A stretch of DNA of 64,000 nucleotides, from the NCBI RefSeq assembly GCF_030068605.1, contig NZ_JASJOU010000001.1, positions 62,001 to 126,000 of the forward strand. Reading direction: 5' to 3'. Positions 52,931 to 55,713 of this stretch are shown in pieces. The first letter of the stretch is position 1, and each line of letters opens with the position of its first letter. Made by a program: the position numbers and the translations under genes. This DNA comes from Xanthocytophaga agilis (GTDB lineage: Bacteria > Bacteroidota > Bacteroidia > Cytophagales > 172606-1). The notes under the pieces were generated by a model that was given only the letters and a program-made list of their open reading frames with translations, was not told the DNA's origin and searched no databases.

Positions 52931-53063
52931 CTGTCCTTCTGGAAGAATCTTCCCGTCACGGCGGGCCACGTGTGGCAAAACCGGAAGCATTTAGATTTTG
53001 AGTTTATTTCTCTCAGAAACCAAGCAGGGCTCTATTTGTCACAAGATTCTTTCAGAAGGACAG
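52931..53063. repeat. inverted repeat enclosing about 90 bp
   Basis: Arms CTGTCCTTCTGGAAGAATCTT (52931-52951, 21 nt; one mismatch to the complement of 53043-53063) are flanked outside by complementary CT/GA-rich tracts. The second arm is followed by a direct near-copy (TTCAGGAGGACA). It lies 70 nt after the SusD stop, so it could form a huge terminator hairpin, or be a small non-coding mobile unit. Confidence 0.5.
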
Positions 53064-53189
53064 TGGGAGAGAGAGCCTTTCAGGAGGACAAAAGGGAGTA
53101 AGAGCAGGTAAGGGAAGAAAGATATTGGATAGTAAAGTAAAGGATGACTAATATCAAAGAAAAAAGCTACAAAGAGAGTAACGATACCT

Positions 53190-53335
53190 TTAATCGCGGC
53201 ACGTTGTAGCTGTGCGTTGGCAATCTTTCTGCCGCGAGGAAAGCCCCTGGCTTTGCGCGGGGGAGGTTCGGCAGAAAGTGTCCTTTTTTGGTTACTTTTT
53301 TGGACAAGCAAAAAAGTGACATGGCGTGTGATACG
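53190..53335. repeat. GC-rich intergenic repeat with nested hairpins
   Basis: This stretch is far richer in GC than its surroundings. It holds CTTTCTGCCG/CGGCAGAAAG (53225-53234 / 53269-53278) around AAAGCC/GGCTTT, and then GTTACTTTTTTG/CAAAAAAGTGAC (53291-53302 / 53309-53320). The minus-strand reading includes a peptide-like string (KKVTKKGHFL) that I recall as recurrent in spurious ORFs of Bacteroidota, suggesting a dispersed repeat family. No protein gene is supported in 52865-53489. Confidence 0.5.
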
Positions 53336-53489
53336 CGAAAGTTTTGAATAATAAACAAATATGGATACAAGCAAGCAAAAAACGAAGGAATTAGAGGAAG
53401 AGAGACAAAAGAGATAATAAACAACTTTACATCCAAAACTCAGAATGACTCATGTTTCTACCATATATAACCTTAAAAACTAAATCATC

Positions 53490-55013: not shown

Positions 55014-55034
55014 TAGATTGCTGCTTACCTATAT

Positions 55035-55060
55035 AAATCCCTGTAACAGGGGATTTTTTA
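55035..55060 (+). terminator. terminator of phosphoesterase gene
   Basis: AAATCCCTG / CAGGGGATTT hairpin with one bulged base, then TTTTTT, 22 nt after the stop. Confidence 0.7.
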
Positions 55061-55191
55061 TTGGTGAACACTACCTCTACTTACTAAAAGAAAACCATCT
55101 TTTGCTGTAATAACTTTTCAAGTAAGAAATACATGAATTACTGGCAATCAGTAAGTGATCTTGGAGTTATAGCTAGTTTTAGTTTCAGATA

Positions 55192-55457
55192 GGTTACACT
55201 GGGCTACACATAGTTACACATCTGGTTACACTCTAACTATTTGATAATAAGGCAGGTTACACGGGTTACACCTGTTTGGGTATCCGCAAAACTCCTGGGA
55301 GAGTATAAGCACACTGTATATACCCTATTCTATACTATATATATATTATATATATACACGTGTATATAAGAAACAAGTGTAACCAGTGTAACCGACCTTA
55401 TTTACAGCTACTTAGAAGTGTAACCGCTAGTGTAACTATGTGTAACCTGGTGTAACT
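55192..55457. repeat. mirror-symmetric array of twelve GGTTACAC octamers
   Basis: Left arm octamers (plus strand, GGTTACAC or one change) start at 55192, 55202, 55212, 55224, 55255 and 55264. Right arm octamers (complement, GTGTAACC or one change) start at 55377, 55386, 55418, 55430, 55440 and 55450. Start-to-start distances are 10-10-12-31-9 and 9-32-12-10-10, a mirror image. The arms align over 81 columns with only 2 differences in 48 octamer positions but about 15 in 33 spacer positions. The centre (55310-55370) is almost pure A/T with TATATA runs. It is neither CRISPR (units too short and inverted) nor a DnaA-box array. Confidence 0.9.
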
Positions 55458-55713
55458 CTCCTTAATATCAACTACTTACTACATAAGCTGTACAGCTACC
55501 GCTTATATAATTCCCTGAATTATTATGCCTTCATGATTTTATGATTTAACCCCTATACTTGCTGCAGTGTTCGTATTTCCTCTCCTGACTAATATGTACT
55601 TCATTCTACTTCACAGATTAGTTTTTCTACTTCGCCTTTTTTAGCCCATTGGTTCATCTATAGGTAGTGGGAAGTCTTATTTCTTTGCAGAAACCCTAGA
55701 CCACTTACAATCT
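55458..55713. other. intergenic region before the hydrolase gene
   Basis: About 250 bp. A nested palindrome is present at 55483-55506 (ATAAGC/GCTTAT around AGCTGTACAGCT). No ORF and no clean promoter seen, although the hydrolase promoter must lie here. Confidence 0.4.

Follow-up and report, generated by a model that had tools for sequence, protein, structure and literature searches.

A mirrored octamer array of Xanthocytophaga agilis as a probable orphan replication origin of elements encoding a VapE-type initiator

What could be the role of twelve short repeats, arranged in mirror image around an AT-rich centre, in a place where no gene is found? The array lies in the window, i.e., the whole 64,000-nucleotide stretch analysed here, which is part of contig C1 of the 9.77-Mb Xanthocytophaga agilis genome (G000; the genome of Xanthocytophaga flavus YF14B1 is G001). 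A sequence-only reading had described this layout, and we confirmed its positions and spacings: six octamers on the plus strand and six on the minus strand, within 55192-55457, with start-to-start steps of 10-10-12-31-9 in the left arm and 9-32-12-10-10 in the right arm. Eight octamers are exact copies of GGTTACAC, three read AGTTACAC and one reads GGCTACAC, the latter four with one mismatch each; since position 1 is either A or G, the unit was written as RGTTACAC, from which only GGCTACAC departs. The eight exact matches in the window compare with a mean of 1.14 and a maximum of 4 in 100 dinucleotide shuffles, and the mirrored 7-mer score of 11 was reached in none of 200 shuffles of a 351-bp stretch. 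The 700-bp gap (55014-55713) is indeed gene-free, with no overlapping open reading frame of 80 amino acids or more, and the octamers are, as had been noticed, better kept than the spacers between the two arms (hand counts of 2 differences in 48 positions vs 14 in 32 plus one gap). The AT content is 69% in the centre, 80% at 55316-55370 and 61% in the window. The array is composed of the following features:

55192 to 55271, plus strand: left arm, six octamers (starts at 55192, 55202, 55212, 55224, 55255 and 55264), consensus RGTTACAC, putative initiator-binding iterons
55234 to 55246, minus strand: putative IHF-type site TATCAAATAGTTA in the 31-bp step
55272 to 55376, no strand: AT-rich centre, putative unwinding element, with homologous centres in other arrays
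55377 to 55457, minus strand: right arm, six octamers (starts at 55377, 55386, 55418, 55430, 55440 and 55450)
55466 to 55478, plus strand: second putative IHF-type site TATCAACTACTTA, immediately beyond the right arm
about 55186 to 55480, minus strand (alignment orientation, with the VRR-NUC side first and the primase side last): stretch common to other copies

The extent of 266 bp proposed earlier thus holds for the array itself, but the shared stretch is slightly larger. Origins of staphylococcal pathogenicity islands (SaPIs) have an AT-rich region flanked by iterons, and the window array likewise has multiple short iterons to the left and right of an AT-rich centre. To our knowledge, RGTTACAC bears no resemblance to the consensuses of DnaA boxes, parS, dif or CRISPR.

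The sequence-only reading had proposed looking for the array in the rest of the genome and in relatives. A first DNA search retrieved 14 matches at 8 places in G000 and further matches in G001, these being the two genomes with matches among 59 (the other 57 include one same-genus genome, 72% complete). With two sequence models, one per array group (R1 and R2, overlapping hits merged by hand), we found arrays at at least 26 places in G000 (15 by R1 and 11 by R2) and at least 21 in G001 (10 by R1 and 11 by R2), which are lower bounds because scoring was limited to the 150 best candidates of each genome. No array was present among the best 150 candidates per genome in the other genomes (6 by R1, 7 by R2), and, as R2 misses an array of G062 described below, the models see close relatives only. 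About five octamer types were identified (RGTTACAC, TGTTACAG, GGGGTAAG, TGGGTAAG and a looser GGGTMAG group), the type being mostly uniform inside one array. Arrays of different types have in common their layout, the motif of the 31-bp step and parts of the centre. On these comparisons, the window array is a member of a family with constant layout and varying octamer. We found no description of such arrays in the open-access literature searched. Two arrays of unlike octamer type were also observed side by side, at G000:C14:111727-112263 and C14:243091-243990, and likewise in contig C10 of G001. In the 11 RGTTACAC rows of alignment A1 the mean column identity is 0.856 for octamers, 0.826 for the centre and 0.705 for spacers; octamers thus vary less than spacers across copies, as expected under the earlier proposal that octamers and spacing are selected, and selection after insertion may be the reason.

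The IHF consensus used was WATCAANNNNTTR. In 13 arrays, the primase-side 31-bp spacer contains an exact IHF-type site in 7 and a site within one mismatch in 12, with shuffle expectations of 0.04 and 0.53, respectively, whereas the opposite spacer contains such a site in none of the 13; these arrays are related and therefore not independent. Over its full length the window shows no enrichment in IHF-type sites, given that 9 were found and 7.26 expected; its array has two exact ones, at 55234 and 55466.

A gene for a VapE-type primase-helicase is located directly 5' of 5 of the 26 arrays found in G000 (C8:142k, C29, C8:289k, C6:204k and C28, the latter with a truncated gene) and of 3 of the 21 found in G001 (C5, C62 and C61), leaving 21 of the 26 in G000 without an initiator gene alongside. 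The next gene after the array is VRR-NUC-like, with phrog_824 and Holliday resolvase matches, in 4/5 modules of G000 and 2/3 of G001 (all except C6 and C61). Ten proteins were scanned for families, nine from the C8 module and one from C62. The C8:142k module encodes HTH, DEAD/ResIII helicase, BT4734-N, VapE, VRR-NUC-like and amidase proteins, and its VapE protein has BT4734-N, PriCT_2 and VapE domains, with a phrog DNA primase match; similar ORFs were recognized by eye in the C29 and C62 modules. No integrase or capsid gene was seen by eye in the module ORF lists, part of whose ORFs were family-scanned. A match to PDB chain 7pds ('Similar to D. nodosus vapE') was obtained with the initiator profile (E-value 1.9e-19), over the helicase core only and not extending to residues 597-731, and a scan of viral contigs with the initiator gave one weak relative. 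For the TGTTACAG type, no VapE initiator was recognized in G000 or G001; arrays of this type are present at L164 (C2:477981), L171, L028 and L030, and the repeats of the VapE-like gene at G001:C60:222595 read AGGTTGA, not TGTTACAG.

Modules of this capsid-less-looking kind (HTH, helicase, VapE, VRR-NUC-like, amidase; L176:11575-18641, L177:6623-8598; L173/L174; L178, with no capsid gene seen) keep open frames at the same loci in the two species. Could they possibly serve as lysis or amplification cassettes? An intergenic repeat reading ...RTLSAEPPPRKARGFPRGRK... also recurs, in the window at 53039-53374 (minus strand) and at L031:5350-5619, L031:8834-9121 and L039:5854-6168, two of the copies sitting inside a VapE module.

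A link between octamer and initiator was identified in the orthologous modules G000:C29 and G001:C62. Around the array, the DNA that can be aligned shows 89-96% identity; alignment of this quality is lost in the array itself and in the terminal 1.2 kb of the initiator gene. Between the two initiators, identity falls from 93% (residues 1-336) to 43% (337-640) and 29% (641-731), the first drop being sharp and located near residue 335, and the octamers read GGGGTAAG in the former module and RGTTACAC in the latter. As the C-terminal break and the octamer change coincide, the initiator C-terminus and the array appear to have moved as one cassette. In fact, initiator C-terminal parts group by octamer type: identity is 78-100% among the three RGTTACAC initiators, 61-99% among GGG-type ones and 24-51% between groups. 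This covariation suggests that each initiator C-terminal domain is matched to its own iteron sequence. The divergence covers the helicase too, so that it does not pinpoint the DNA-reading residues.

If arrays accompany VapE initiators, they should also be found at VapE genes retrieved independently of them. VapE genes from a protein search (G000:C8:289k, G000:C6:202k and G001:C61:222k) have a mirrored array at the 3' end in 3/3 cases; the exact 7-mer test is weak at G000:C29 and G001:C61, where 13 and 14 of 200 shuffles, respectively, were as good. In G062, which belongs to another family, a 31%-identical VapE gene is followed by a mirrored GTCACC array (0/200 shuffles as good). Of 18 gaps picked by eye near a VapE 3' end, nine exceed all shuffles (window, C8:142k, C8:289k, C6, G062 and the phages mumin6-4, Lena, F2 and D4446, the latter one-sided), three are weak (C29, C61 and BM127P1) and six show nothing; repeat scores were thus above all shuffles in 4 of the 11 phage records and not in the other 7. 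The mumin6-4 gap comes after one intervening gene, and the D4446 and PM21P1 stretches are further from the VapE 3' end than the other tested gaps. Eleven further VapE-like loci were examined, two of which have no sequence after the frame (G035 and G036) and one 156 bases in which nothing was found (G064). Four of the remaining eight have repeats above all 200 shuffles (TACTACA in G084, GGGTAAG in G049, AGGTTGA in G001:C60 and TTACTAC in G075), the score of G027 was reached by 3/200 shuffles, and G076, G003 and G051 gave no repeat signal 3' of the gene. Layouts vary among these loci and not all are mirrored. Since many VapE genes have repeats of their own at the 3' side, each VapE lineage tends to have its own repeat, with exceptions. 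The GGGTAAG repeats after the VapE-like gene of L207 (G049, another family) resemble the TGGGTAAG type of G000.

We propose that the window array is very probably an orphan iteron-type replication origin of phage- or satellite-like elements encoding a VapE-type initiator. For the array family, an origin-type identity is well supported by layout, gene association and covariation, and what was found speaks for an origin used by phage-like elements more than for one of the host chromosome or for a partition site. Of the functions suggested in the sequence-only reading, replication site is retained in kind, on account of the VapE 3' neighbours and the octamer covariation, and partition site is unsupported. 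In the mechanism we infer, both arms would be bound at their octamers by the initiator C-terminal domain, outer and inner octamers may be brought close by an IHF-like bend, two helicase rings would load face to face and the AT-rich centre would melt. In intact modules the putative origin fills the space that follows the initiator gene; the copy in the window would have lost, or never had, the module genes. It would fire, or titrate initiator, only if an RGTTACAC-type element, resident or incoming, supplies one, and one RGTTACAC-type initiator is still encoded in G000, in contig C8 at 139667-141859.

Several known systems share parts of this organization. Phage P4 alpha is a primase-helicase and origin-binding protein that reads short type I iterons at ori/crr; the reading of short iterons would be common to both, but ori and crr are separate in P4. 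Flavobacterium phage mumin6-4, Paenibacillus phage Lena and Bacteroides phage F2 have, as here, VapE, gap repeats, VRR-NUC and a helicase close by, but their repeat sequences differ from the arrays described here and, in mumin6-4, one gene separates VapE from the repeat gap, unlike in our modules. In SaPI rep-ori and SCCmec Cch2, short iterons are located directly downstream of the gene of a self-loading helicase initiator and are read by its C-terminal domain (PMC7581432). The module arrays are likewise directly downstream of a VapE-type helicase gene, whose product, as noted above, resembles a VapE-like PDB chain in the helicase core. Judged from the genes beside its relatives, the window array would belong with these SaPI-type iteron origins. 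Unlike in SaPIs, the host is a member of Bacteroidota, BT4734-N and PriCT_2 primase parts are fused to the helicase, the mirrored array is longer, with a 31-bp step, and most copies are without initiator. The latter situation recalls PER (phage-encoded resistance) of phage phiSfi21, which is described as a 302-bp non-coding, copy-number-dependent origin giving resistance (PMC6356513). Both are non-coding putative origins of similar size apart from a full phage, but the resistance effect is reported for PER, whereas the window array is known from sequence alone.

How, then, did the orphans arise? The window has no VapE match and its array is not directly downstream of an initiator gene. When 12 module proteins were compared by tblastn with 26 loci, one of them the window, hits were limited to the C29 and C28 loci; in a further 16 loci, five queries (VapE and VRR-NUC) revealed a single primase vestige of 27 aa, at G001 C4:48k. 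In 17 arrays without VapE neighbour (L007 skipped), with a score above all 100 shuffles required, a vestige of the VRR-NUC 5' end was identified in two (C23 and C7) and of the primase 3' end in none; a VRR-NUC vestige at G001 C11:650k is borderline (score 37 vs shuffle maximum 40), and a primase 3' end vestige at C1:1078k has a score of 99, without shuffle comparison. The other arrays tested, window included, are bare, with no initiator or gene relic found. The C23 array (C23:62k) is absent at G001 C2:44.5k, where 374 bp are replaced by 14, a near-clean empty site. For the G000 orphans C9:137k and C1:279k one flank only was found in G001, and synteny therefore breaks near them. Several orphans are decaying (C14:112k, C14:243k and C1:741k). 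Such vestiges and decay suggest that the orphans are in part relics.

Comparison of orthologous places showed that array interiors change. The same flanks enclose G000 C2:698k (RGTTACAC) and G001 C11:650k (TGTTACAG, opposite orientation), and G001 C4:76k (TGTTACAG) corresponds to G000 C1:1078k (TGGGTAAG); the type is unchanged in the orphan pairs C14:112k, C14:243k, C2:478k and C9:246k. The window locus and its G001 copy have the outer block and the flanks in common (90% and 79%), with identities of 94% in octamers, 70% in the centre and 67% in spacers. The G001 copy is 88% like G000 C2:698k and the window copy 88% like the C8 module, and these cross-locus likenesses imply that interiors were exchanged between places. 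Gene conversion is enough to explain this, without a need to invoke selection.

Octamers were more conserved than spacers in four pooled orphan ortholog pairs (314/327 identical octamer positions vs 292/326 spacer positions, p 0.0014), a pool that excludes L002/L024 (the module pair) and the window pair, which has recombined, and in which L162/L168 is not counted; the p value becomes 0.12 without L005/L026. In the window pair alone, whose interior was exchanged, the values are 82/87 and 50/75 (p 9e-6). It may be that orphans act as decoys on top of their origin identity, titrating incoming initiators as PER would, with octamer types exchanged to follow the elements. This reading, which we regard as possible but unlikely, draws on the window array and its ortholog, with 1 mismatch to RGTTACAC in 23 octamers (11 in the ortholog; hand count), on the different octamer types at two orthologous orphan sites and on the PER precedent (PMC6356513); it has to face the decay of several orphans, a conservation excess that depends on one of four pairs, and an exchange for which gene conversion alone may account. 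Intact octamers, shared sites, type exchange and the PER precedent are consistent with orphans being possibly retained as decoys. A bolder version, in which about twenty orphans are fixed addresses whose specificity is swapped cassette-like, as a decoy or suicide-origin panel forming an origin-only immunity system, seems rather improbable to us.

The remaining explanations dispense with an origin. In the sequence-only reading, many scattered copies of the unit were to indicate an ordinary MITE; the copies exist, but this label misses the initiator link and the switches of octamer type across whole arrays. A non-autonomous MITE, with octamers as sub-terminal transposase sites and modules that gained copies by insertion, would account for at least 26 dispersed copies in G000, the intergenic position of the solo copies examined, the inverted arms and the near-clean empty site at C23:62k. 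Nevertheless, no target-site duplication is clear by eye at that single site, in several modules with unlike octamer types the space behind the VapE gene is taken up by the array, the array type changes together with the C-terminal half of the adjacent protein, and repeat arrays of unlike sequence are present 3' of VapE genes in other families and in phages, which makes a MITE quite unlikely. We give still less credit to an operator array for initiator autoregulation and a dispersed regulon: sites that repeat at about one helical turn between genes would suit a transcription factor, but genes next to the orphans examined look unrelated by eye, a location 3' of the initiator gene is more in keeping with an origin, and the PF12728 HTH gene of the C8 module is about 5 kb from the array. 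The analyses run also gave no support to the cooperative repressor array suggested earlier. A transcribed hairpin or small RNA gene is hardly credible, since the minus-strand fold, however strong (-125.5 kcal/mol, z -10.3), follows from the mirrored arms, and the covariation term is only -0.06 in a consensus fold computed from 13 copies, although 12/55 pairs show two-sided changes. Folding and Rfam gave only hairpin-like matches, the four Rfam ones all below gathering score, and this candidate was rejected.

As an origin, the window array would belong to a sizeable population of initiator-less, origin-like arrays tied to VapE C-terminal specificity, in which the natural swaps offer a ready-made specificity experiment. 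Iterons paired with their putative initiators (for four types the gene is resident in G000, for others in relatives) could serve to study how origins are read by VapE/SaPI-type helicases, and origin decoys as chromosomal immunity would become directly testable.

A dispersed repeat of up to about 150 bp, near which AATTCACCGCAAAAA-like units are located, adjoins an orphan array at L032:7785-7940; it has about 30 matches in G001, some within about 400 bp of the arrays C11:425k, C60:236k and C6:211k.
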